NCBI GenBank assembly: GCA_013152325.1
Contig: JAADGN010000019.1
Span: 1-42,845 of the forward strand
DNA length: 42,845 nt
Source of the DNA: Chloroflexota bacterium
GTDB lineage: Bacteria; Chloroflexota; Anaerolineae; Anaerolineales; Villigracilaceae
Reading direction: 5' to 3'
Under the pieces are notes generated by a model. That model had not been told where the DNA came from, searched no databases, and saw only the letters and a program-made list of their open reading frames with translations. Of the stretch, positions 8,937-23,893 are shown in pieces. How positions within the stretch are numbered: the first letter of the stretch is position 1; the number at the start of each line of letters is the position of its first letter. The position numbers and the translations under genes were made by a program.

Positions 8937-9752
8937 ATGGCATTGCGCGGCAACCTGCGCGACTTTACGATTACCCAACTGCTTAACCTGATCAACCTGG
9001 CGCACAAGACGGGGACGCTCATAGTGGATGGTCCCAATGAGACGGCCCAGGTCGCTTTCCGCGAGGGGAAGCTGGCTTATGCCGCGATAGGGCAGGAAGA
9101 TAACAGCCTGGCGACCATTTTGCACAAAGGCAGCAAGTTGACTGCCAACCAGTACCTCGCGATCAAGCAGCGTTCTGACCATGTGTCGGACAAGGAACTT
9201 GGGTTGTTGTTGATCAACGCTGGCTATGTCTCGCAAGAAGATATCCTTGCCAGTTTGCAGCAGTATTTTATAGACATCACCCGGCGGCTTTTCACCTGGG
9301 TGGAAGGCTTCTTCCGCTTTGAGAACGACATGTTGCCGCCGGAAGACCGCATCAATATCCGACTTGACCTGGAAAATCTGATCATCGAAGGCTCGCGCCA
9401 ACTGCGTGAGTGGGAACAGTTGCAGGATGAGATTCCCAGCCTGGAGATGGCGCTCAAATTTACGGACCGACCGGGCGCGAATCTGCGCAATATCAATTTG
9501 AGCGTGGAGGAGTGGCGGGTCGTTTCTTATATCACGCCCAAGAATACCATCAGTCAGATCGCCAAAGCGACGAAAATGAACGAGTTGGAGATCCGCCGAA
9601 TTGTGTACGGCTTGCTGCAGGCGGGGTTGGTGGAGATCGTTCGGCCAGAAGGCGCTCCGCTTCCGATGACCTCGAATATGTTCCCAACACAGGACAAAGA
9701 AGAACAGAAATCCTTGGTCAATCGCTTGATCAAACGCATTCGTTCAATGTAG
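8937..9752 (+). CDS. DUF4388 (PATAN-type) domain protein with C-terminal winged-helix-like segment
   Basis: MALRGNLRDFTITQLLNLINLAHKTGTLIVDG...VAFREGKLAYA; ATG at 8937 preferred over TTG at 8925. Confidence 0.87.
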   Translation: MALRGNLRDFTITQLLNLINLAHKTGTLIVDGPNETAQVAFREGKLAYAAIGQEDNSLATILHKGSKLTANQYLAIKQRSDHVSDKELGLLLINAGYVSQEDILASLQQYFIDITRRLFTWVEGFFRFENDMLPPEDRINIRLDLENLIIEGSRQLREWEQLQDEIPSLEMALKFTDRPGANLRNINLSVEEWRVVSYITPKNTISQIAKATKMNELEIRRIVYGLLQAGLVEIVRPEGAPLPMTSNMFPTQDKEEQKSLVNRLIKRIRSM

Positions 9753-9787
9753 CGCATTCAAATCTTTTTAATTCAAGGATAGACATT

Positions 9788-10327
9788 ATGCAAACGGTCA
9801 AAATGGTGGTGACAGGCCCCTTCAGCGCCGGAAAAACAGAGTTCATTCAATCGGTGAGCGAAATTGACGTTGTCTCGACCGAACGAAAGATTTCTTCCGA
9901 TGGCGAAAAGATGGTCAAGGAAGCGACCACAGTTGCGATGGACTTTGGCCGTATCACTGTGGACGAAGACTTGGTGCTGTACCTTTTTGGCACGCCGGGC
10001 CAGAAGCGTTTCGACTTTATGTGGGAAATTCTCTCCGAAGGTATGTTGGGTTTCATTGTTATGGTGGACAGCGCTCGTCCGGAGACCTTCCGCGAGGCGC
10101 GTGGTATTCTGCAAACTTTCCGCGCTTACGCGCCTACGCCCTACGTCGTGGCTGCCAACAAGCAGGATGCAGAAGATGCCTGGGAAGTCGATGATATGCG
10201 TCACGCGCTGCGGCTGGATTCAAAGATCAAGCTGCTGCCCTGCGTCGCTACCAACCGCAAATCTGTCAAGACAGTCCTGCTGGAATTGCTGTACAGCATC
10301 TTGGCTGAGATGGAGTCCGGAGGGTAG
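9788..10327 (+). CDS. Small Ras/Arf-like GTPase of the MglA/CvnD type
   Basis: G1 GPFSAGKT, TTVAMDFGRI, G3-like FGTPGQKRFDFMWE, G4 NKQD; ATG at 9788 within ORF 9512-10327. Confidence 0.9.
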   Translation: MQTVKMVVTGPFSAGKTEFIQSVSEIDVVSTERKISSDGEKMVKEATTVAMDFGRITVDEDLVLYLFGTPGQKRFDFMWEILSEGMLGFIVMVDSARPETFREARGILQTFRAYAPTPYVVAANKQDAEDAWEVDDMRHALRLDSKIKLLPCVATNRKSVKTVLLELLYSILAEMESGG

Positions 10328-10348: not shown

Positions 10349-11149
10349 GTGTCCTCAATTACCACTGATCAAGGCATAGTTCATTACGAAGTTTATGGAC
10401 GTGGGCGTCCAGTCATCTTGTTGCATGGGTGGCTGGGTTCGTGGGGGTTATGGCAGGAAACCATGGCCTATTTGGGCCGTTATTATCGCACTTATGCATT
10501 GGATTTCTGGGGGTTTGGCGAATCGGGCAAGAAGCGCGAGACTTACGCCGTACAGGATTTTGTCAGTCTGGTTGACCAATTCATGGAAAGGTTGGGCATC
10601 GTCCGCGCGCCGCTGGTCGGGCACAGCATGGGCGGCACGGTCAGCCTTTCGGTTGCCATCCAGTATCCGGAGCGGGTCAGCAAAGTCGTGGTCATCGGCT
10701 CTCCGATCGTCGGTTCGTCGCTGGCCTGGCCGCTGAAATTGTCTGGCTACCGGGCGGTCGCCTTTATGCTTTTCAATGTCATGTGGGGCTTTCGCCTGGG
10801 GATGCGCATCGCTTCGCCGTTCATCAGCCGGGATCCGCGTTTCCCCGAGATGATGGATCGCGACCTTTCCCGCACCACCCTGGAATCCTTCCTGTTGAGC
10901 ATTGCCTCCCTGCGCCGCACGGACCTGAGTCCGATGTTGCCGCAGATCAAAGTCCCGGCGCTGGGCATGTTTGGCGCCCTGGACAACATCGTCAATCCCG
11001 GCCAATGGCAGCCGATGCAGGCCGGTATCCCTCGCGTGCAGATCGAACGATTCCCCGATGCCGGCCATTTCATCATGCTGGACGAGCCGGACGAGTTCAT
11101 GCGGAAGTTGAAAACATTCCTGGACGAAGAGCAGCCGCCGAATGAGTGA
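10349..11149 (+). CDS. Alpha/beta-fold hydrolase (GHSMGG nucleophile elbow)
   Basis: LLHGWLGSWGLW, DFWGFGESGK, LVGHSMGGTVSL, DAGHFIMLDEP. Confidence 0.92.
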   Translation: MSSITTDQGIVHYEVYGRGRPVILLHGWLGSWGLWQETMAYLGRYYRTYALDFWGFGESGKKRETYAVQDFVSLVDQFMERLGIVRAPLVGHSMGGTVSLSVAIQYPERVSKVVVIGSPIVGSSLAWPLKLSGYRAVAFMLFNVMWGFRLGMRIASPFISRDPRFPEMMDRDLSRTTLESFLLSIASLRRTDLSPMLPQIKVPALGMFGALDNIVNPGQWQPMQAGIPRVQIERFPDAGHFIMLDEPDEFMRKLKTFLDEEQPPNE

Positions 11150-11771
11150 TTCCATGCCAGCGTATTATTATCCTAACCGCATGGGGAGGATCATTCTGCT
11201 GGCAATGGAGGAGATCATCGGGCAGAACGGCGTCAATGCCGTCTTGAATCTGGCTTCGCTCTCGTCGATGATCGATCGTTACCCTCCCCGTAACCGGGAT
11301 TTACAAATCCCTTTTGAGACCATCAGTAGTATCCAGTCAACGCTGGAGCAGATTTACGGGCCGCATGGTGGACGCGGACTGGCCCTGCGCACCGGACGCG
11401 CCTGTTTCAAATACGGGATGCGTGAATTTGGTCCCCAACTGGGGTTGACGGACATGGCTTTCCGCCTGCTGCCGTTATCGACGAAATTGCGTCTCGGCAG
11501 CCGGGTGTTTGCGTCTCTTTTCAACCGGCACACCGATCAACGCGTCCGGCTGGAGGAACAGCCCGGGCAGATCCACTGGCACATCGAGCGCTGCCCCTTG
11601 TGCTGGGGCCGCCACACCGACGAACCGGTCTGTCACCTGGCCGTAGGACTGTTGCAGGAGTCCCTTTACTGGGTGAGTGGTGGTAAGATATTTAACGTTG
11701 AAGAAACTCACTGTATTGCACGCGGTGATCCGGCCTGCACGATTGTCATTGACCGCATCCCCATAACCTGA
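11142..11771 (+). CDS. V4R (4-vinyl reductase) domain protein
   Basis: C-terminal CPLCWG..PVCHLAVGLLQESLYW...EETHCIARGDPACTIVI matches the V4R Cys pattern; overlaps the upstream gene by 8 nt. Confidence 0.82.
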   Translation: MSDSMPAYYYPNRMGRIILLAMEEIIGQNGVNAVLNLASLSSMIDRYPPRNRDLQIPFETISSIQSTLEQIYGPHGGRGLALRTGRACFKYGMREFGPQLGLTDMAFRLLPLSTKLRLGSRVFASLFNRHTDQRVRLEEQPGQIHWHIERCPLCWGRHTDEPVCHLAVGLLQESLYWVSGGKIFNVEETHCIARGDPACTIVIDRIPIT

Positions 11772-11775
11772 ACTC

Positions 11776-13053
11776 ATGCTGAAGATCATCCTCCAAGCCC
11801 CTCGACCACTTCCGCCGTTCAATGAGCCGGCGCGGGATTTGCGCATTCAGAATCAGCCGTTGTGGCTGCTCCAGCGCAACCTGCTGGCCCCGTATACGAC
11901 GCGTGAACTGGAATTGAAGCCCGGCCAGCGCCTCCCGCAGACGCGCGAGGAGATGCTGGTCTACCGCGACAATCTGTTTTTCGATCAGGGCTACATTCGC
12001 GCTTTCCTGGCAACTGCCAGAAAACGCGGCCGCGCCAGCCGGGCGGCTTTTTCATCTGAAGACCCGGCCTTCCGTGAACACGCGCTGCCGCTTTCCACAT
12101 CGTACACACCGGCCGGGAATCTGTATTTGGCCGATCTGTGGTATTACCCGCGCGGCCCGGTCGCGGATGCACGTCCGCTGGTGGTCGACATGCAAGCGCG
12201 CGAGGTGGGGTACTACCATGTTCCCACCTACATGGCTGACGAGAGCGGCGACTTGGTCTTCCAGGTGCCATTGCGCGCGCTGTTGGCAATCGATTCGTGG
12301 GTGCATATTTTCATCGCGGACGTGGTCTTTGGCATGTTCGCACGCGGGGCGCGTTTTGAAAAACGCCTGAACGAAGACCTGTTGTACAAATTGAAGATAT
12401 TGAGCACGGCGCTTTATGAGGGCCGGCAAATATTGGAATGTTCAGAGTTGGTCAAGGTGGGCAAGAACTGTATTATCGACCCGCGTGCCGTCATTCACGG
12501 CCCGACGACGATTGGCGATAACGTCACCGTCGGTGCGGGCGCAGTCATCGAGAATTGCATCATCGGGGATAATGTCAATATTTCTCAGGATGTGCAGCTC
12601 ATGCTCTCGGTCGTCGGGGACGGCACGTTTTTGCCCTTCCGGGCGGCGTTGTTCATGACCACGATTATGGACAACAGCATGGTTGCTCAAAATACTTGTT
12701 TGCAGATGTGCGTGGTGGGGCGCAACACCTTTATCGGCGCGGGGTCCACGTTTACGGACTATAACCTGATTCCGGCTCCCATTCGCGCCCTGGATGGTAA
12801 CGACGAGCTGAAGATCTCAAACCGTCCTGTCATGGGCAGTTGTGTGGGACATAACTGCCGCCTCGGCTCCGGATTGGTCATTTATCCGGCGCGGACGATT
12901 GAATCGGACGTGGTGCTGGCTGCCTCCAAAGAGCGGCGCGTGATCATGAAAGACATCCGTTACGAAGACAGCGACCATCATCACTTGCGTTTGGGGTATT
13001 TGCATCGCTCCCCGTATCATCAATCAGGCGAATCAGAGGTGGAATCTTGGTAA
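11776..13053 (+). CDS. Left-handed beta-helix (hexapeptide repeat) protein, GlmU/acyltransferase-like
   Basis: VGKNCIIDPRAVIHGPTTIGDNVTVGAGAVIENCIIGDNVNI hexapeptide repeats; unassigned N-terminal about 200 aa. Confidence 0.8.
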   Translation: MLKIILQAPRPLPPFNEPARDLRIQNQPLWLLQRNLLAPYTTRELELKPGQRLPQTREEMLVYRDNLFFDQGYIRAFLATARKRGRASRAAFSSEDPAFREHALPLSTSYTPAGNLYLADLWYYPRGPVADARPLVVDMQAREVGYYHVPTYMADESGDLVFQVPLRALLAIDSWVHIFIADVVFGMFARGARFEKRLNEDLLYKLKILSTALYEGRQILECSELVKVGKNCIIDPRAVIHGPTTIGDNVTVGAGAVIENCIIGDNVNISQDVQLMLSVVGDGTFLPFRAALFMTTIMDNSMVAQNTCLQMCVVGRNTFIGAGSTFTDYNLIPAPIRALDGNDELKISNRPVMGSCVGHNCRLGSGLVIYPARTIESDVVLAASKERRVIMKDIRYEDSDHHHLRLGYLHRSPYHQSGESEVESW

Positions 13054-13056
13054 GCA

Positions 13057-14148
13057 ATGGATAGTTTTGCCTTTATCATTCATCCGATTGACCCTAAACG
13101 GGATGTCAGCCGAAAGTACCCTTTTCTGGGGCGTGTGCTCAGTGAACGTCAAATTGATTTTTTCTCGACATTTTTCCCTCCGGTCTACATTTCCGAGATC
13201 GAGGGAATTACGTCCGAGGCCACCGGCAAGCAGATCAAAGGCTGGTTCATAGCGTGCCCGTTCACGCCGCGACGCATGCTGGCGTTGCCAGAAAAGACAG
13301 TTTATCGTAAGATTATTCAGACCGGACGTTTATCCGAGCGTCTGGGTGCGGATATTCTTGGCCTGGGCGCATTCACGTCCGTGGTCGGAGACGCCGGGAT
13401 TACTATCGCGAAGGCGCTGGATGTACCGGTCACGACGGGTGATTCGTACACCGTGGCGATTGCTGTGCAAGCCATTCGCAAGGCGGCGGAGTTGATGGGG
13501 ATTTCACTGCGCAACGCGACCGCGGCGGTGGTCGGCGCGGGCGGAGCGATTGGCCGGGTCTGCGCTGAATTGCTGGCTGATGATGTCGCCCGTTTATATC
13601 TGATCGGCCGCCATATGGGGCCGCTGGAGGAAGTCCAGACTGCGTTACAGCCCTCGGCGCGGGCGGAACTGGTCGCCAGCACGGACATGTCTGTCCTTTC
13701 GGATGCCCGGTTGATCTTGACGGTGACCAGCGCGGTACATCAGGAAGTCATCCGCCCGGAGCATCTTCAACCGGGCAGCGTGGTTTGCGACGTGGCGCGG
13801 CCTCGCGATGTTTCTGTAATGGTAGCCGCGGCAAGAGATGATATATTAGTAATAGACGGCGGTATGGTGGATGTTCCAGGCCCCGTTGACTTTCACTTTA
13901 ATTTTGGTTTTCCACCTGGCAAAGCTTATGCCTGCATGGCTGAGACGATGGCGCTGGTATTGGAAGGTCGTTTGGAAGATTACACATTGGGCAAGCATAT
14001 CACGCGCAGCCGTGTGGACGAAATTACGATGATCGCGGAGAAACATGGTTTCCGTCTGAGCGGTTTTCGCTCTTTTGAAAAAGAAGTAACGCCGGAACAA
14101 ATCGAAGCTGTACGCCAGAGCGCCCGCAGGGCGCAGCGGCGCAACTAG
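13057..14148 (+). CDS. NAD(P)-dependent reductase resembling long-chain acyl-ACP reductase (AAR) / shikimate-dehydrogenase-like Rossmann protein
   Basis: LGAFTSVVGDAGITIAKALDVPVTTGDSYTVA, Rossmann VVGAGGAIGRVCAELL, conserved-looking YACMAETM. Confidence 0.7.
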   Translation: MDSFAFIIHPIDPKRDVSRKYPFLGRVLSERQIDFFSTFFPPVYISEIEGITSEATGKQIKGWFIACPFTPRRMLALPEKTVYRKIIQTGRLSERLGADILGLGAFTSVVGDAGITIAKALDVPVTTGDSYTVAIAVQAIRKAAELMGISLRNATAAVVGAGGAIGRVCAELLADDVARLYLIGRHMGPLEEVQTALQPSARAELVASTDMSVLSDARLILTVTSAVHQEVIRPEHLQPGSVVCDVARPRDVSVMVAAARDDILVIDGGMVDVPGPVDFHFNFGFPPGKAYACMAETMALVLEGRLEDYTLGKHITRSRVDEITMIAEKHGFRLSGFRSFEKEVTPEQIEAVRQSARRAQRRN

Positions 14149-14167: not shown

Positions 14168-15073
14168 ATGGGAAAAGCCCGCCTTTTGGTCGTCGAAGAC
14201 GACGCTGATATTGCCAATATGCTGAAGATCTACTTTGGCGGCTTGGATTTTGATGTGGACATCGCGCCGCGCGGATCGGTTGCATTGGAGAAAACGCGGC
14301 AAGTATTGCCTCATTTGATCATTCTGGACATCATGCTGCCGGATATTGACGGCTACGAGGTCTGCCGTACACTGCGTACCAGCACGCGTACCAGCCATAT
14401 CCCGGTCATCTTCCTGACGCAGAAGGATGAGCGCAGCGATAAGCTCCAGGGGCTGGAATTGGGCGCGGATGACTACATCACCAAGCCATTCGACATCGAA
14501 GAGCTTAAGTTGCGCGTCCAGGGAGCCATTCGTCGCGCTGAGCGCGAGAGCCTGACCGATCCTCGCTCTGGACTTCCGGCCGGGCATCTGATCGAGGAGC
14601 AGCTACGCCGCATCATCCGTGAGGAGAGTTGGGCGTTGATGGATGTGCGTCTCAACCACTTCGATTCATTCAAGGATGTCTACGGTTTTGTGGCTGGCGA
14701 TGACGTATTGCGCTTCACGGCCATGTTGTTGGGCGAAGTCGTGGACGAACTGGGCACTGCGGATGATTTCATCGGCCACGCGGGTGGCGACAATTTCATA
14801 ATCATCACCACTGAAGATGCTGCCCGAACGATCAAGCAGCGCCTGAAAGACCGTTTTGTGGAAGAGGTGCAAGCCCACTACAACTTTATGGATCGTCAGC
14901 AAGGCTTTGTGCAAACAGCCAATTCAGACGGGGAGATGGAGAAGGCGCCGTTGATGACACTGGCCGTCGGGATCATTACACCCAAACAGCATACTTTTGC
15001 AGATATCCGCGAGATTACAGAGATGGCGGCCGAGGTGCGCCGGCAGGATACCACAAGCGTTTCCAGGGGCTGA
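14168..15073 (+). CDS. Response regulator with degenerate GGDEF output domain
   Basis: Receiver VVEDDADIANML...IILDIMLPDIDGYEV...GADDYITKPF; GGDEF-like domain with GGDNF. Confidence 0.88.
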   Translation: MGKARLLVVEDDADIANMLKIYFGGLDFDVDIAPRGSVALEKTRQVLPHLIILDIMLPDIDGYEVCRTLRTSTRTSHIPVIFLTQKDERSDKLQGLELGADDYITKPFDIEELKLRVQGAIRRAERESLTDPRSGLPAGHLIEEQLRRIIREESWALMDVRLNHFDSFKDVYGFVAGDDVLRFTAMLLGEVVDELGTADDFIGHAGGDNFIIITTEDAARTIKQRLKDRFVEEVQAHYNFMDRQQGFVQTANSDGEMEKAPLMTLAVGIITPKQHTFADIREITEMAAEVRRQDTTSVSRG

Positions 15074-15084
15074 GGTTCCATTCT

Positions 15085-18000
15085 GTGATTTTGCAAGGGC
15101 TGGGCCTGGGCATCGAACTCCTATTGCTCGGACTGGTATTGATCGTACTGGTCTGGGTTTTATCGCGTTTGGTTACCCGACTTCAGCCCACTTTCCAATC
15201 TGCAATCCAACCATCATCTGTTGATATTCCTGAACATACGGATGCCGTACTGGTGATCCAACCCGGCGGACGGGTTGAGTATGTCAACGCGATTGCACGA
15301 CAGTGGTTTAATCTGAACGAGAATGAACAGCCAGACCTGGAACGGCTGGCGCGGCGCGCCCGTCCCAGCGACGACTTTCTGCGCCTGTGCACCGCGGAGG
15401 GCCAGACGCGCTTTTCAATCGGCGGGCGGTTGGTGGAAGGCGTCTCCTATCAGGTGCCTGGGCCGTATCCGGTCATGCTGCTCTCGCTGCGTCAACCGGA
15501 AATTGCGTCGGGGCTGGCGGAGGCCGGCGATGTGTCCGGTTCGGTTCTTCGCATCATCACGGACTTCGGTCAGGCGATTGCTGCCAACTTGAATTTGGAC
15601 GCCACCCTGTGGGCTGTCCTGGAGAATATCGAGCGACTGATCCCCGCGGATGTTTTGGAAATCAAGATATGGGATCAGGCGAGTCAAAGGCTCGTTCCCT
15701 ATCGCTTCAGCAGCCTGAATGGCACGACTCGTCAATTGGAGAGAAGCACCGAGACGCGCTTCGGGGCGTATTCCGAATACCTGGTTGCCAAAAAACAGCC
15801 GCTATTTGTCCCCGATACGCAAGCTTTTACCGAGGTGCGTTTTACAGAAGGAACTGGGCAGTATCCGATCCGCTCCTATATCGGCATTCCGCTTCAGGCC
15901 GGGGGCGAGTTGGTCGGCATATTGGAGGCGGGTCAGATCGCTGTCGATGCCTATGCGCGCGAAGACCTGGACATTATCCAACTGATCGCCGGGCAGGCCG
16001 CGACAGCCATTCGCAACGCGTTGCTGTACGAGAATGAACAGCGGCGCGCAGCCGAACTTTCGGGGTTGGCAAATCTGGCTCAGTCGGTTGGCTCCTTGCA
16101 GGACGCGCAGGACTTCTTTGGCCGTCTGGTAAAGAGTATCGTTTCCCTGTTCGACGTAAAAATCCTGGGCTTTTTGCTCTACGACGAGAATCGGCGAATG
16201 CTGGAGGGGCAAGTGCCCTTTGAAGGAATTCCAGCGCACGTGGTCGAGATCTATCACGCCGTCGTGCCCGCTGGAAGCCCGGCTGCGAAGATCATCTCGG
16301 CGCGCGAAACTCTGCTGACGGAGGAAGCCACGGAAGATGAGCGGTGGCGCGATCTGAACTTGCATGACGTGGCTCAAGCGGCCAGCTTGCATGAATCGGC
16401 GCTGGTGCCCTTGGTGTCTGGCGGACGTTTTCTGGGTTACCTGCAACTTTCCAATCATCGTCAGGGCAAGACAGCTTTCTCTCAAGACGAATTGCGTTTG
16501 ATGGAGATCGTCGCCAACCAGGCTGCGACGATCATCGACAATGCAGCCCTTATGCAGCAGACCCGCCGACGCGCCCAACGCTCGGAAGCCTTGCGCAGGA
16601 TTGCCAGTTTGGCTGCCTCCTCGGCGACGATGGATGAGATCCTCCGTTTTTCTTTGCGGGAATTGGCGCAACTTCTTCAAGCCGATTCGGCTGTGATCTT
16701 TCTCCTGGATGAACGCCAGGGTACCTTGAATGCCCATCTGGATTCACTTTGGGGGGTCTCAGAGGAGAGCCTGAAATTATTCTCGCAGTTGTATGTGGAC
16801 GACCCACAATATCGCTTCACGGTCACGGGCAGTCAGCGTGCCTTTATTTCAGGGCATTTGAGCCGGGACAGGCGTGTTTTGCAGCTCTATCGTCCGATGG
16901 TGGAGACCTCGCAGATGGAATCGGCAGTTGTCGTTCCTCTGGTCGTTCGAGAGCGCAGCATTGGCGAGTTGATGATCACCAGCCGGAAAACGGACTTTTT
17001 CAACGATTACGATCTCCAGGTCGTTGCGACGGTCGCCGGTCAACTGGCCGTTGCGATCGAAGAATCCAGCCGATCTGCGCAAACGGACGAAAGCCTGCGG
17101 ACGCGCGTCGACCAGTTGGTTGCCCTTTCACGCGTCAGCCGTGAACTGAACACGACCCTGGATTTGGATCAACTGCTCCAGGTCGTATACGATGAAGGTC
17201 TGCGTACCACGCGGGCTGATTGCGGCACGATTACGCTCTTTGACCTGAACGGAGCGCAGGACGACCCGCGCGTGAGCCTGTCCCTGGGTTGTTTGCATGA
17301 CGATCAACTTACGGATCTCGAGCGTGCCGCGGTCCAGAACGGCAGGCCGATCCTCGTCGCCGATTCCAAGAACGGGGAGTATCCTGCCAGTCATGACGGC
17401 GTTCGCTCTGCACTGGTGGCGCCCATTGCCCATCAGGGAAAGACCGCTGGTCTGATCCATCTGCATTCCGATGCCCCGAATCATTTCGATGACGCATCGT
17501 TGGACTTTATCCAAACGCTGGCCGTCCAGGCGGCGATTGCTTTGGGAAATGTTCATCGTTATCACGAACAGATGCGTCATGGTGAATTGCTCCGCCGCCG
17601 TGCGGAAACCCTTTCCAAGCTGCTTGAGACCACGTACACCCTTGACCCGGATCAGCCGCTGGAAAGCGCTCTGGAGGCGATAGCCCGCGGCATTCACGAG
17701 TCGACGCCCTTCCAGGTGGTCCTGGTCAGCGTCTATGAGCCGGATACAGGCATGTTGCGTCGCGTGACCGGCGTCGGCATCCCGCCTGAGACGTTGAACG
17801 AGTTGAAAGCCCGCAAGCAGCCCCTGACGAGCATCCAGCAATTGCTCAAGCCCGAATTCCAAATCGGACGCGCGTACTACATCCCGGCGGATGAGACCCC
17901 GGTCGTGCCGACGGATGTGCACATGGTCACCCTGCCGTCTGCGGGGATGGATGAAAAGCCGAATGCCTGGAATCCGAACGACTTCCTGCTTTTCCTGCTC

Positions 18001-21000
18001 GAAGACCAAACCGGGAACCCGCTGGGGTTGATCAGTTTGGACCAGCCGAGCGACGGCATGCGTCCGGACCATGCCACGATTGAGTCGATCGAGATTTTTG
18101 CTGCCCAAGCATCGCTGGTCATCAGCAGTCAATACCGCCTGAATGATTTCAAGGGACGCATTGAAGCGCTCTCTTCCGGGATGGAACGCCAGCAGCGCTT
18201 GTTGAGCGTCAGCCAGAATGATCTGCCGATCTTGCTGCACAAGGACCTGGAGCAGACGATAACCGTCCAAAACCTGGAGCGGCGCACGCAGCGTATCCGC
18301 GCCGGGTTAAAGATCACCGAGACGGTCAGCCGCCAATTGGACGCTTCATCTGCCTTGCTGGCGCTGGGCCGTGAGATCCTTACCCACCTCGGCATGTCGG
18401 TCGCGCTGGTTGCCGAAGATACGCCCGAAGGCCCGCACCTTTTGCATGTTTTGGGCAACGTGCCGCGCGCCACCAATCCCGAAGCATTGTTCGGCCAGCG
18501 CAACCCTCTGCGAACTTGCCTGCAAACGGGCGAGACTTTGGTGGTCATGAACCTGGACGAGAACGATGAGTGGCGCGAGACGCCGTTGCTCAGCGCGCTG
18601 CATGCCAAGGGCTTCTTGAGTTTGCCCGTCAAGGTGGACGGTAAGACCGTGGCTGCGGTGCTGGCGATCAGTCTGGAGCCGATGCCGGCCCTGGCAGAGG
18701 AAGATCAACAGGTCTACTTCCAGATCGCCCGGCAGGCTTCCGTTATTCTCCAGAATATCGACCTGCTCAACGAGACCCGCCGCCGCTTGCAGGAAGTTAA
18801 CCTGTTACTGGACTTCAGCCGCCGTTTGAGCGGACTTGACCCGGTCAGCATTGTCAAGGCGTTGTTGGAGAGCGCTTTGCGTGTGATCTCGGCTGCGCAT
18901 GCCGGGGTGGTGCTGCTTTGGGACGACCGGCGGGAGCAGTTGGTCCCGAGGGCTGTTCTGAATTACGCGGATAACGACAGCATGATGGAAATTACCTATC
19001 ATGCAGGGGAGGCGCTCCCCGGCACTGTCTTCGCGGAGCGGCGGCCTCGCAACGTGGACGAAGTTAACTTCGCCCGGGATTACACCCTCTCGGCGACACA
19101 TCTTTTGTATTATCGTCAGGCGACCGGCGGTCGCTTGCCCGTTTCCAGTTTGCTGATCCCGATCCAGATGGGCGATCATTGCCTGGGCGTGCTGGTTCTG
19201 GACAATTTCAACAAAGCGTCCGCGTTCCAGGCTGAAGATGAAGCCCTGCTGCTCTCGCTGTCACAGCAGGTTGCGCTTTCCCTGGAAAACGTACGCCTGG
19301 TGAAAGCGACCGAAGAACGCGCCGGCCAATTGCAGGCGCTGACGGGCGTCGCGGCGACGATCACTTCCAGTTTGCAAAGCGGTGAACTGGTCGCTTTGTT
19401 GCTCGATCAGTTGGGAGCGGTCATCCCCTTTGATACGGCCACTCTCTGGCTGCACGATCAGGATCACCTGTCGGTTGCCGCGGCGCGCGGCTTCCCGGAC
19501 AGTGAAGAGCGCATTGGCCTGACTGTGGCCGTCGAAGACAGCGCTTTGTTCAACGAAATGATCCGCACCGGTCAGGGCATCGCGATCTCGGACGTGCGTG
19601 AAGACCCGCGTTTCCCGGCCTTGGTTGAAGCCGAGCGGTTGTCCTGGCTGGGCATTCCGCTGATTTCAAAAGGCGAGGTGACCGGCGCTATTGCCCTCGA
19701 AAAAGAGGATGCGAATTTTTACACGCCGACTCATATCCAGGTTGCGAAGACGTTCGCCGGGCAGGCGGCTGTGGCGCTGGAGAACGCCCGTCTGTACGAG
19801 GACAGCCTGGGACGAGCGGCGGAACTCGACCAGCGTTCACAACGTTTGGCGTTGCTCAACCGCTTCTCGGCGGAGTTGAGCGGCTCGCTGAATGCCGACC
19901 AGGTGCTCTGGCTGACAGCAGAAGAGTTGCTGCGGGCGTTGAATGCCAGCCAGGTTTCCGTGATCGTCTTCGAACGCGGACAGGCTCTTTTGAAGGATAT
20001 TTTGCCGGAGACCAAACGCGCTCGACCGGAGGATTTGCCCCAGCCTTTGCCCGAAACGCCCCTCTTCGAGCGTTTGCGCGAGTCGCTGGGGGTGTTCACC
20101 ACGGACGATGTGCAGGCCGAGGCCGAACTTGATGAGTTGGCAGATCTCCTGGGCGAGACCAGGGCTTTGATGGCGTTGCCCCTTTCCAGCGGCGAAGCGA
20201 TGCACGCCTTGCTGTTCATCCAGATGGAGGGTGATTTCCGCTTCAGCCCAAACGAGATCGAGTTGGCGCGCACGATTGGCAACCAGGCTTCTATCGCGCT
20301 GGAAAATGCCCGCCTGTATCAGTCCACGCTTTCGACGGCTGAACGACTGGCGATCATCAACCAGGTCAGCGCTGAGATCAGCGCCAGCCTGGACCCGGAA
20401 AAGATTTACGTCGCGGTTCACGAAGCGGCCAAACGCCTGATGCCGGTCGAATCCTTTGTGATCGCCTTGTTGAACGAGAAAGAACAGGTGATTGACGGCG
20501 TTTATCTGGTGGACCATGATGAACGTTCGCAAACCATGAGCCTGCCGCTCGACCAGGGGCTGAGCGGACAGGTGATCGCTACCGGCGAACCATTATTGAT
20601 CCACGGCTCTGACCTGGTGGATGAGATGGGCGGCGTCACAGGCGGGGATTTGGGTACGCCGCGCTCCATCCTGGCTGTGCCGATGCAGATAGGCGAGCAG
20701 GTCGTCGGGATGCTCTCGGCGCAGAGTTACCAGGTCAACGTTTATACGGAGGATGACCAGCAGATTCTGAGTACGCTGGCGAACCAGGCCATCATCGCCA
20801 TTCAAAATGGACGCCTGTTTGCCGAAACCCAGCGCCTGGCGGAAGAACTCGAACAGCGCGTCATCGAACGTACCGCACAATTGGAACGGGAGCAGAAGAA
20901 TACAGAGACGCTGCTGAACATTCTTACCGAAGTCTCCGCCAGCCTCGACCTCGACCGGGCGCTCAATCGCACCCTGGCTTTGCTTAATGATGCCACCGGT

Positions 21001-22527
21001 GCGGAACAGGGCACGATCATGCTCCTGCATCCGGACGACAATCAGCTCCATTATCGCGCCGGGTATGGCTATTTGACCAACGCGAAGGCGGAACAAAAGG
21101 AATTTGCCTTGAGAGTCGGTGAAGGTCTGGCGGGCTGGGTGGTTCAGAATCAGGATGCCATTTTGGTTGACGACTTGAATCAAGACCCGCGCTGGGTGAA
21201 GATCAAGTCCAAAGTGCAGAAACACCGCAGCGCGATCTCGGCTCCGCTGATTGTCGGCGAGGATGTGATCGGCGTGTTGATGGTCTTCCATCGCAAGAAG
21301 AAGTTTTTCGATCCGGAGCAGCTCAATCTCGTCAAGGCCATTGCCAGTCAGGTTGCCGTCGCGATCAACAATGCCAATCTGTATGAGTTGATCCGCGATC
21401 AGGCTGAACGCCTGGGCAATATGCTTCGCAAGGAGAAGGAAGACGCCAGCCGGTCGCAGGCCATCCTGGAGGCCGTCGCTGACGGTGTGCTGGTGACGGA
21501 CGCGGAGAACAAGATCAGCTTCCTCAATAATTCGGCGCAGCGCATCCTTAATCTGGATGCCTCGCATGTGGTCGAGCAGACGCTGGATGATTTCGGCGGT
21601 CTGTTTGGCAAGGCGGCCAGCGCCTGGAAACAAACCGTCCGCGAGTGGTCGGAAGATCCGTCTTCGTATGTGCCGGGCGACACATACGCCGAGCAACTGG
21701 AACTGGAAGATGGTCGTGTGGTGCTGGTCCACCTGGCGCCTGTCATGCTTCCGAACGACTTCCTGGGTACGGTCTCTATTTTCCGTGACATCACGCACGA
21801 AGTCGAGGTTGACCGCTTGAAGTCCGAGTTTGTGGCGACGGTCAGCCACGAATTGCGCACGCCGATGACCTCCATCCGCGGCTACGTGGACATCCTGTTG
21901 ATGGGCGCGGCCGGAGCGATGAACGAGAATCAGACCCATTTCCTGGAAATCATCCGCAACAATACCGAACGGCTGAATATCCTGGTCAACGATCTGCTCG
22001 ATATCTCGCGCATCGAGTCCGGGCGTGTTACACTCGCCCCACAGCCGCTTGACCTGCGGGATGTGGCCGAGGATGTGATCTCCGAAGTGCTGCGCCGCTC
22101 TCAGGAGGAAAACAAACCCATGGGGCTTTCGCTCGAAGCAGCCTCCAGTTTGCCCCGCGTCTATGGCGACTCTGAGCGTGTGCGTCAGATCATTGCCAAC
22201 CTGGTGGAAAATGCCTATCGCTACACCCCTGAGAACGGCAAGATAATCGTCCGCCTGCAGGTCGTGAATGGCGGCGACGAGGTGCGGGTGGATGTGAGCG
22301 ATAATGGCGTTGGCATTGCCCCGGAAGACCAGGAACAAGTCTTCGAGCGTTTCTACCGTGGCGAGAATCCGTTGGTGCTGGCTACGCCTGGAACAGGCTT
22401 GGGCCTGCCCATTGTCAAGCAGTTGGTCGAGATGCATAAAGGCCGCATCTGGATGGAAAGTACTGGAAAACCCGGGAAAGGGAGCACGTTCTCCTTCACG
22501 CTTCCTGTACATCAGACTGGTAAGTGA
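15085..22527 (+). CDS. Giant hybrid-sensor-type histidine kinase: 1 TM, PAS-like, about 11 GAF-like units, PAS, HisKA, HATPase_c
   Basis: GTG start; FVATVSHELRTPMTSIRGY H-box; QIIANLVENAYRYTP N-box; DNGVGI and GTGLGLPIVKQLV; repeated GAF-terminal motif (A/N)QAAxAIxNAxLY. Confidence 0.95.
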   Translation: MILQGLGLGIELLLLGLVLIVLVWVLSRLVTRLQPTFQSAIQPSSVDIPEHTDAVLVIQPGGRVEYVNAIARQWFNLNENEQPDLERLARRARPSDDFLRLCTAEGQTRFSIGGRLVEGVSYQVPGPYPVMLLSLRQPEIASGLAEAGDVSGSVLRIITDFGQAIAANLNLDATLWAVLENIERLIPADVLEIKIWDQASQRLVPYRFSSLNGTTRQLERSTETRFGAYSEYLVAKKQPLFVPDTQAFTEVRFTEGTGQYPIRSYIGIPLQAGGELVGILEAGQIAVDAYAREDLDIIQLIAGQAATAIRNALLYENEQRRAAELSGLANLAQSVGSLQDAQDFFGRLVKSIVSLFDVKILGFLLYDENRRMLEGQVPFEGIPAHVVEIYHAVVPAGSPAAKIISARETLLTEEATEDERWRDLNLHDVAQAASLHESALVPLVSGGRFLGYLQLSNHRQGKTAFSQDELRLMEIVANQAATIIDNAALMQQTRRRAQRSEALRRIASLAASSATMDEILRFSLRELAQLLQADSAVIFLLDERQGTLNAHLDSLWGVSEESLKLFSQLYVDDPQYRFTVTGSQRAFISGHLSRDRRVLQLYRPMVETSQMESAVVVPLVVRERSIGELMITSRKTDFFNDYDLQVVATVAGQLAVAIEESSRSAQTDESLRTRVDQLVALSRVSRELNTTLDLDQLLQVVYDEGLRTTRADCGTITLFDLNGAQDDPRVSLSLGCLHDDQLTDLERAAVQNGRPILVADSKNGEYPASHDGVRSALVAPIAHQGKTAGLIHLHSDAPNHFDDASLDFIQTLAVQAAIALGNVHRYHEQMRHGELLRRRAETLSKLLETTYTLDPDQPLESALEAIARGIHESTPFQVVLVSVYEPDTGMLRRVTGVGIPPETLNELKARKQPLTSIQQLLKPEFQIGRAYYIPADETPVVPTDVHMVTLPSAGMDEKPNAWNPNDFLLFLLEDQTGNPLGLISLDQPSDGMRPDHATIESIEIFAAQASLVISSQYRLNDFKGRIEALSSGMERQQRLLSVSQNDLPILLHKDLEQTITVQNLERRTQRIRAGLKITETVSRQLDASSALLALGREILTHLGMSVALVAEDTPEGPHLLHVLGNVPRATNPEALFGQRNPLRTCLQTGETLVVMNLDENDEWRETPLLSALHAKGFLSLPVKVDGKTVAAVLAISLEPMPALAEEDQQVYFQIARQASVILQNIDLLNETRRRLQEVNLLLDFSRRLSGLDPVSIVKALLESALRVISAAHAGVVLLWDDRREQLVPRAVLNYADNDSMMEITYHAGEALPGTVFAERRPRNVDEVNFARDYTLSATHLLYYRQATGGRLPVSSLLIPIQMGDHCLGVLVLDNFNKASAFQAEDEALLLSLSQQVALSLENVRLVKATEERAGQLQALTGVAATITSSLQSGELVALLLDQLGAVIPFDTATLWLHDQDHLSVAAARGFPDSEERIGLTVAVEDSALFNEMIRTGQGIAISDVREDPRFPALVEAERLSWLGIPLISKGEVTGAIALEKEDANFYTPTHIQVAKTFAGQAAVALENARLYEDSLGRAAELDQRSQRLALLNRFSAELSGSLNADQVLWLTAEELLRALNASQVSVIVFERGQALLKDILPETKRARPEDLPQPLPETPLFERLRESLGVFTTDDVQAEAELDELADLLGETRALMALPLSSGEAMHALLFIQMEGDFRFSPNEIELARTIGNQASIALENARLYQSTLSTAERLAIINQVSAEISASLDPEKIYVAVHEAAKRLMPVESFVIALLNEKEQVIDGVYLVDHDERSQTMSLPLDQGLSGQVIATGEPLLIHGSDLVDEMGGVTGGDLGTPRSILAVPMQIGEQVVGMLSAQSYQVNVYTEDDQQILSTLANQAIIAIQNGRLFAETQRLAEELEQRVIERTAQLEREQKNTETLLNILTEVSASLDLDRALNRTLALLNDATGAEQGTIMLLHPDDNQLHYRAGYGYLTNAKAEQKEFALRVGEGLAGWVVQNQDAILVDDLNQDPRWVKIKSKVQKHRSAISAPLIVGEDVIGVLMVFHRKKKFFDPEQLNLVKAIASQVAVAINNANLYELIRDQAERLGNMLRKEKEDASRSQAILEAVADGVLVTDAENKISFLNNSAQRILNLDASHVVEQTLDDFGGLFGKAASAWKQTVREWSEDPSSYVPGDTYAEQLELEDGRVVLVHLAPVMLPNDFLGTVSIFRDITHEVEVDRLKSEFVATVSHELRTPMTSIRGYVDILLMGAAGAMNENQTHFLEIIRNNTERLNILVNDLLDISRIESGRVTLAPQPLDLRDVAEDVISEVLRRSQEENKPMGLSLEAASSLPRVYGDSERVRQIIANLVENAYRYTPENGKIIVRLQVVNGGDEVRVDVSDNGVGIAPEDQEQVFERFYRGENPLVLATPGTGLGLPIVKQLVEMHKGRIWMESTGKPGKGSTFSFTLPVHQTGK

Positions 22528-22534
22528 GGCGTCA

Positions 22535-22909
22535 ATGACGAAAATATTGATAGCAGAAGACGAACGCGATATTCGGGACTTGATCGCTTTTACGCTGCGT
22601 TTTGCGGGATATGAAGTTGTGACCGCTGCGAACGGAGAAGAAGCGGTCGAATCGGCAGCACAAGAAACCCCGGACTTGATCTTGCTGGACGTACGCATGC
22701 CGCGCATGACCGGATACGATGCTTGCAAGCTCATCAAATCTGATCCGGCGTTGGTGGATATACCGGTGGTTTTTCTTTCTGCCAAAGGCCAGGAATCGGA
22801 GATCCAGACTGGCCTGGAGGCCGGCGCGGAGGAATATTTGCTCAAGCCCTTCGCCCCGGACGAGTTGACGGCGCGCGTGCGCGCCATTCTGTCAAAATTC
22901 GGGAAGTGA
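22535..22909 (+). CDS. Single-domain response regulator
   Basis: MTKILIAEDERDIRDLI...LILLDVRMPRMTGYDA...EYLLKPF; ATG at 22535 within ORF 22304-22909. Confidence 0.94.
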   Translation: MTKILIAEDERDIRDLIAFTLRFAGYEVVTAANGEEAVESAAQETPDLILLDVRMPRMTGYDACKLIKSDPALVDIPVVFLSAKGQESEIQTGLEAGAEEYLLKPFAPDELTARVRAILSKFGK

Positions 22910-22942: not shown

Positions 22943-23731
22943 ATGAGCGTGGTTCTGGTTGACGAGGCGATTGTGCATTACGAGGTGTTGGGACGGGGAC
23001 GCCCCATCATCTTTCTGCACGGCTGGGTCGGCTCATGGCGATACTGGATATCGTCCATGCAAGTTGCCTCGACCTCGTTCCGCGCCTACGCGCTCGATTT
23101 GTGGGGCTTTGGGGATTCGGCGCGTGAAGCTGGCCGCTACACACTGGATCAGCAGGTCGATCTGTTGGATCACTTCCTCGAGCAGTTGGGTATCGGCAAG
23201 ATCGCATTGGTCGGGCATGGACTGGGCGCGTTGGTCGCGCTGGCTTTCACGGCGCGCTCATCGCAGAGCGTGGATCGCCTGATGGTTGTCAACTGTCCGA
23301 TAGACGTTAAGGCCGTCCACAACCGCTTGCGTACCGCGCCGCTCACTGATCTGGTGGACTGGCTTTCCGGCCGTACGCCGGATGCGCAGACTGCGCTGAC
23401 GGACGCCATCAAGGCAGACCCCGCAGCGATCTCAGCCTCGATGAATGGCATTCGCCTGGAAGAAGTTTTCGAGCAGGTAAAACAGCAGCGCACGCCTTGT
23501 TTGCTGGTACACGGACAAAGCGACCCCGCGGTGGCGATGCCGAGTATGGAGCAGGTCATGGCGTTGCCGCATTTCATGCACCACATCGTGCTGGAAGGCT
23601 CTGCTCATTTCCCGATGATCGATGAGACCGCCAAATTCAACCGTTTGCTGACCGACTTTCTGGCGCTGGATTCAGGGCTCAGCCCGCGTGAGTTGCAGTT
23701 GAAAGAGGAGTGGAAACGGCGCGTGCGATAA
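22943..23731 (+). CDS. Alpha/beta-hydrolase-fold protein lacking the nucleophile Ser (GHGLG), paralogue of 10349-11149
   Basis: FLHGWVGSWRYW, DLWGFGDSA, LVGHGLGALVAL (Ser replaced by Gly93), retains GQSDPAV and GSAHFPMIDE. Confidence 0.9.
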   Translation: MSVVLVDEAIVHYEVLGRGRPIIFLHGWVGSWRYWISSMQVASTSFRAYALDLWGFGDSAREAGRYTLDQQVDLLDHFLEQLGIGKIALVGHGLGALVALAFTARSSQSVDRLMVVNCPIDVKAVHNRLRTAPLTDLVDWLSGRTPDAQTALTDAIKADPAAISASMNGIRLEEVFEQVKQQRTPCLLVHGQSDPAVAMPSMEQVMALPHFMHHIVLEGSAHFPMIDETAKFNRLLTDFLALDSGLSPRELQLKEEWKRRVR

Positions 23732-23792
23732 AAGTCATAGTTGACAGGTTGAAGATTGCAGGGTATTAATTGATTTGAGAATTTGCCAATTG

Positions 23793-23878
23793 AACGGGGA
23801 GCCTGTGGCACAGGCTGAGAGGAGCGTATGACGCTCGACCCGCAATACCTGATCCGGATCATGCCGGCGGAGGGAACA
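23793..23878 (+). ncRNA. TPP (THI-box) riboswitch
   Basis: ggggagcc...ggctgagagg...gacccgcaatacctgatccggatcatgccggcggagggaac matches the THI-box consensus; directly upstream of thiN-thiBPQ. Confidence 0.96.
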
Positions 23879-23893
23879 TAGCACCTGACAACG

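Follow-up and report, generated by a model that had tools for sequence, protein, structure and literature searches.

Inactive accessory proteins built on the alpha/beta-hydrolase fold are already known. DPP10 (Ser replaced by Gly) and DPP6 (Ser replaced by Asp) are inactive alpha/beta-hydrolase-fold S9B peptidases that modulate Kv4 channels, and the triad His and Asp of DPP10 still form a hydrogen bond (PMC4350108). Neuroligins are cholinesterase-like adhesion proteins without the catalytic Ser (PMC12931606). RsbQ needs an intact Ser96-Asp219-His247 triad and contacts the N-terminal PAS domain of RsbP; its gene lies immediately upstream of that of the RsbP-type PAS partner, whose output in some bacteria is a histidine kinase or a diguanylate cyclase (PMC3183031).

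Here, we describe ABH2, an alpha/beta-hydrolase-fold protein of 262 amino acids (aa) that lacks the Ser nucleophile and is encoded at positions 22943 to 23731 of the window (i.e., the whole 42,845-nucleotide stretch of Chloroflexota DNA that was analyzed; all features given below are on the + strand). With moderate confidence, we read ABH2 as a pseudoenzyme partner of the adjacent histidine kinase and single-domain response regulator (RR2), with docking through its C-terminal tail and possible sensing by its pocket linked to the GAF array of the kinase. By analogy with the systems above, ABH2 would be a variant tied to a bacterial two-component system.

The replacements seen in DPP10 and DPP6 (Gly and Asp) are the two commonest among ABH2 proteins, and ABH2, like DPP10, keeps the triad His and Asp. 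DPP10 and DPP6 are accessory subunits of a signaling protein, which is the role that we propose for ABH2 on the basis of genomic linkage and tail conservation; however, they are eukaryotic membrane proteins with a beta-propeller, whereas ABH2 is a single-domain bacterial protein that is linked to a two-component system and has its own C-terminal motif. Neuroligins share with ABH2 an alpha/beta-hydrolase fold without a catalytic Ser and use this fold for protein-protein contacts, but they belong to a different subfamily and are large membrane adhesion proteins of eukaryotes. Judged by arrangement, RsbQ is the nearest bacterial analog, both being alpha/beta-hydrolase-fold proteins encoded beside a sensor protein. 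ABH2 differs from it in the absence of the Ser, in the downstream position of its gene, and in the GAF array of the kinase. Membership of the RsbQ-PAS module was rejected on two grounds: ABH2 has Gly at the equivalent of Ser96, and its gene is downstream of RR2, with the only PAS match of the kinase near the C terminus (about residues 2123 to 2240 of 2480). ABH2 resembles, by analogy, DPP6/DPP10 on potassium channels or an RsbQ-RsbP system free of catalysis, and it plausibly works like DPP6/DPP10, neuroligins, and RsbQ without being a member of the RsbQ module.

Organization of the ABH2 operon

On the basis of strand and spacing, we infer that ABH2 is the last gene of one operon, which starts with a gene for a DUF4388 (PATAN-type) protein (8937 to 9752) and continues with genes for a small Ras/MglA-like GTPase (9788 to 10327), the alpha/beta-hydrolase paralog ABH1 (10349 to 11149), a V4R-domain protein (11142 to 11771), a hexapeptide-repeat protein (11776 to 13053), an acyl-thioester (acyl-ACP) reductase-like protein (13057 to 14148), a response regulator with a partial GGDEF domain (RR/GGDEF; 14168 to 15073), a 2480-aa histidine kinase with about ten GAF domains and PAS, HisKA, and HATPase domains (15085 to 22527), and RR2 (22535 to 22909), which is directly upstream of ABH2. 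The two hydrolase-fold copies had been described in the initial annotation as bracketing the operon; ABH1 is its third gene, so the bracketing is not strict. A TPP riboswitch (23785 to 23893) marks the next, unrelated transcription unit; it precedes genes for thiamine pyrophosphokinase and a thiamine-type ABC transporter, and this neighbor is kept in many, but not all, relatives.

The reductase-like protein is related to long-chain acyl-ACP reductases (121.6 bits) and to the N-terminal part of PigE (210.5 bits), with both scores below the curated cut-offs. Its gene adjoins those of the V4R protein and the small GTPase, and its product is a possible source of an aldehyde or acyl signal for this operon. 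The GTPase encoded next to the DUF4388 protein (8937 to 10327) shows 72 to 85% identity in most relatives read, and this high conservation suggests a GTPase switch within the same signaling operon. No description of the operon was found in a literature search with limited coverage of subscription journals. Searches on MglA, GTPases, and histidine kinases of Chloroflexota yielded no more than general papers on GTPases and conservons, those on V4R proteins returned nothing on this operon, and a topic search on pseudoenzymes of the alpha/beta-hydrolase fold gave no result.

Fold and active site of ABH2

ABH2 belongs to the alpha/beta-hydrolase fold, scoring 82.4 bits against Pfam PF00561 (curated cut-off, 25.8). 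Both ABH2 and ABH1 match Pfam Abhydrolase_1, and they share 32% identity over 260 residues (E value, 2e-39), an alignment that includes the common motifs listed in the initial annotation. The AlphaFold2 model of ABH2 (mean pLDDT, 85.5; pTM, 0.87) had alpha/beta hydrolases as its PDB neighbors among the Foldseek matches listed. The best of these were meta-cleavage-product hydrolases (e.g., CumD, PDB 1iun), haloalkane dehalogenases, and the D14/DAD2 receptors, at about 20% identity and TM-scores of about 0.7 to 0.8. Engineered mutants aside, these catalytic families, unlike ABH2, have a nucleophile.

The nucleophile elbow of ABH2 (residues G91-H92-G93-L94-G95; 23213 to 23227) is encoded by ggg cat gga ctg ggc, with a Gly codon (gga) where Ser is expected, exactly as first noted. 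The two other members of the triad, which had also been described as kept, are both present: the acid D194 (23522 to 23524) lies in the segment GQSDPAV (residues 191 to 197), and H222 (23606 to 23608) lies in GSAHFPM (residues 219 to 225), with both assignments supported by the ortholog alignment. The oxyanion-loop motif HGWVGSWRYW (residues 26 to 35; 23018 to 23047) is nearly invariant among ABH2 proteins. The translation of ABH1 likewise bears out the GHSMG elbow attributed to it; its triad (Ser93-Asp212-His240) is intact, as it is in 31 of 31 relatives.

Variation at the nucleophile position

Among 205 nonredundant ABH2 proteins of Chloroflexota, residue 93 was Gly in 121, Asp in 31, Ala in 20, Ser in 19, Asn in 9, and Thr in 5. 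The predominance of Ser that would speak against the initial annotation was thus not seen, and that annotation, made from a single sequence, could not show the Asp, Asn, Ala, Ser, and Thr alternatives. Only Gly, Asp, or Asn occurred in the nearest orthologs, with no Ser among these 94 distinct sequences. The tree requires at least 29 changes of residue 93, and the flanking residues 91, 92, and 95 are nearly invariant. Asp93 is limited to one recent group, where it is mixed with Gly forms and near Asn forms, and the deeper branches carry Gly, Ala, Ser, or Thr. Because ABH1 and the wider superfamily carry Ser, the comparison suggests that Ser is ancestral at this position, although the tree is unrooted and the direction of change is unproved. 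A complete Ser-Asp-His triad was found in 18 of the 205 proteins, which could be enzymes. Taken together, loss of the nucleophile is supported as a long-standing trait of the ABH2 family. The conserved elbow nucleophile (Ser, Cys, or Asp) that marks catalytic alpha/beta hydrolases is lacking in ABH2, and the acid and His that go with it are present in the window protein. Sequencing error or decay in a single genome was ruled out by the same pattern in the 205 orthologs. No candidate for a shifted or substitute nucleophile stood out beside the elbow, and residue 117 is rarely acidic.

A strained elbow Asp has been described for the nucleophile elbow (PMC7538969). Applied to ABH2 by analogy, Gly, Asn, and Asp would be residues that tolerate the strained backbone of the elbow.

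Retention of the triad acid and His

The remaining triad residues are widely kept (D194, 185 of 205; H222, 198 of 205, with Tyr replacing His in six). Losses of the acid fall mainly where Asp occupies position 93. Asn, Thr, or Ser replaces the acid in 18 of the 31 proteins with Asp93, while 172 of the 174 proteins without Asp93 keep it, the two others being one replacement and one divergent member with the region missing. When mapped by parsimony, five of six acid losses fell on Asp93 branches, which make up 4.8% of the tree length (p about 1e-6, a value that depends on the ancestral reconstruction); an independent-pairs test was not significant, with too few informative pairs. This concentration of acid losses on Asp93 proteins is most simply read as the retention of a single carboxylate near His222, which either position 93 or position 194 can supply. 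The retained His and acid argue for a residual role of the pocket.

A conserved tail and a variable cap

ABH2 ends in a tail that is absent from ABH1 (residues 241 to 262; 23663 to 23728; core, LKEEWKRRVR) and that was not mentioned in the initial annotation. In the ortholog alignment, W257 and R259 are present in 205 of 205 proteins and R260 is present in 203, more than for either D194 or H222, and residues 254 to 262 (KEEWKRRVR) are the best-kept feature of ABH2 without a counterpart in ABH1. A loose version of the tail pattern matched only ABH2 in the loci read, apart from one chance open reading frame (ORF). Such a KEEWRRR tail is not known in meta-cleavage-product hydrolases, haloalkane dehalogenases, or D14/DAD2 receptors. 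The tail has low model confidence (pLDDT, 48 to 56 per block), which is what a flexible docking segment would give, and it is probably flexible. Other conserved ABH2-specific residues (R33, Y34, R234, and L235) lie in the first and last helices, which in the canonical alpha/beta-hydrolase fold share one side of the sheet.

The cap behaves differently in the two paralogs. Across the 26 loci that encode the two paralogs, cap sequences had a mean pairwise identity of 25% for ABH2 versus 45% for ABH1 (N-terminal core, 53% and 66%, respectively), and the cap averaged 65 residues in ABH2 versus 82 in ABH1. ABH1, with its longer and better conserved cap, looks like a constrained enzyme, and the roof of the ABH2 pocket looks relaxed. 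The poorly conserved cap argues against one conserved, specific ligand. One ABH2 ortholog (locus L165, 6926 to 8719) has a Pro/Ser/Thr/Ala-rich insert of ~330 residues in the cap, with the core motifs and tail kept.

Lineages in which the kinase has changed

Two genomes, G064 and G071 (loci L277 and L278), have a kinase ORF of about 800 to 850 aa, with no GAF domain above the Pfam cut-off. Their ABH2 proteins retain GSWRYW and the tail (KEFWKRRVR) but no longer have the acid and His of the triad or the HGW motif, so that the GAF array and the triad decayed together in this lineage; the two genomes are related and represent one evolutionary event. At certain other loci, the kinase ORF is likewise short but ABH2 has its triad. 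The GTPase of G064 and G071 has also diverged (40 to 44% identity).

These observations bear on two other readings of ABH2. We consider it unlikely that ABH2 is a purely structural adaptor that binds no ligand, with a fold that only displays the tail (and possibly also the face of helices A and F) to the kinase and a His-Asp pair that is a structural relic. This would fit a tail that is better conserved than the triad and that outlasts it in G064 and G071, as well as a cap variable enough to hold the L165 insert, but the acid (172 of 174 without Asp93) and the His (198 of 205) are kept more often than expected for a pure relic.

General-base catalysis by a His-Asp pair is described for cofactor-free dioxygenases of the alpha/beta-hydrolase fold. 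ABH2 might accordingly be an enzyme that needs no nucleophile, with His222-Asp194 as general base in the production or modification of a signal for the GAF domains, a reading that we hold to be more doubtful again. It would account for a His and an acid that persist after the loss of Ser, for a carboxylate that is seemingly resupplied at position 93 where D194 is lost, and for the nearly invariant oxyanion-loop motif. It is harder to reconcile with the poorly conserved cap, with the change of His to Tyr in six proteins, and with G064 and G071, where the ABH2 gene is still in place without acid and His.

Distribution and gene linkage

In the family to which the window belongs, 139 of 152 genomes had a match with an E value no higher than 1e-30, and most of these matches were full-length ABH2 proteins. 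Of 301 genomes from the order, 163 had orthologs at the same loose threshold. ABH2 also occurs across its class and in a second Chloroflexota class. Where a family genome has the RR/GGDEF gene without ABH2, a contig end cuts off the locus in most cases. The kinase-RR2-ABH2 order is kept throughout the locus panels. At 176 of 177 loci (from the family of the window to the second class, with some organisms represented in two collections), the gene directly upstream of ABH2 on the same strand encodes RR2 (171 loci) or the kinase (5 loci); the single exception begins at a contig end.

ABH1 and ABH2 are in the same operon across Anaerolineae, and ABH1 is away from the ABH2 locus in Chloroflexia. 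In G066 (L273), the RR/GGDEF gene leads straight to RR2, the kinase and ABH2 are both absent from the locus, and ABH1 remains. In G016, the DUF4388-GTPase-ABH1-V4R block survives without kinase or ABH2. Because of these two loci and those of G064 and G071, we conclude that ABH2 goes with the kinase and ABH1 with the GTPase. We therefore see little chance that ABH2 is a regulatory partner of catalytic ABH1 (i.e., an enzyme/pseudoenzyme pair): common ancestry and the shared operon in Anaerolineae favor such a pair, but ABH1 is located elsewhere in Chloroflexia and persists where ABH2 is missing, and it is RR2 or the kinase that ABH2 adjoins.

It is least probable of all, and scarcely credible, that the Asp93 proteins are active Asp-nucleophile enzymes of the epoxide hydrolase/haloalkane dehalogenase type with the Gly forms as recent losses, since, despite GHDLG-type elbows in 31 of 205 proteins and epoxide hydrolases and dehalogenases among the profile matches, Asp occurs within a single recent group, among Gly and near Asn forms, the deeper branches do not carry it, and 18 of the 31 lack the triad acid without having one at residue 117 in its stead, which makes Asp93 an unlikely nucleophile. 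Membership of ABH2 in these enzyme families was likewise rejected, with Gly in the window protein and frequent loss of the acid in its Asp93 relatives.

A proposed pseudoenzyme partner of a two-component system

The preferred reading, ABH2 as a non-enzymatic signaling partner of the kinase/RR2 pair, follows from the loss of the Ser, the near-unchanging tail, and the adjacent kinase and response regulator genes. The hydrolase core would serve as a scaffold, and docking on the kinase or RR2 would probably occur through the tail (K-E-E-W-K/R-R-R). The leftover cavity with its His-carboxylate pair may report a small molecule to the GAF array. The loss of Ser, the intact ABH1, the gene linkage, the kept tail, and the joint decay of GAF array and triad in one lineage are seen in the sequences themselves, whereas docking, ligand binding, and the direction of any effect on the kinase are inferred. 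Counting against this reading are the poor conservation of the cap (25%), the complete triad in 18 of the 205 proteins, and the single event behind G064 and G071.

The initial annotation had suggested a sensor/adaptor or ligand-binding pseudoenzyme. Its adaptor part is the best reading of the present data, with the nucleophile lost family-wide, ABH1 intact, and ABH2 tied to the kinase/response regulator pair. The ligand-binding part is divided, with cap identity (25% versus 45%) against it and the His-acid pair for it. More tentatively, ABH2 might be a phylum-wide, nucleophile-free subunit family of giant GAF histidine kinases, which would dock through a W-x-R-R tail and whose pocket would have turned to sensing, with one carboxylate beside the His selected whichever residue supplies it.

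Hydrolase-fold proteins are usually annotated as enzymes, and ABH2 represents a widespread bacterial group apparently converted to a signaling part. The intact ABH1 in the same operon provides a built-in control, and the Ser, Ala, Gly, Asp, Asn, and Thr forms offer natural intermediates of active-site dismantling. The invariant tail gives a testable handle on the putative contact of such a protein with a histidine kinase.
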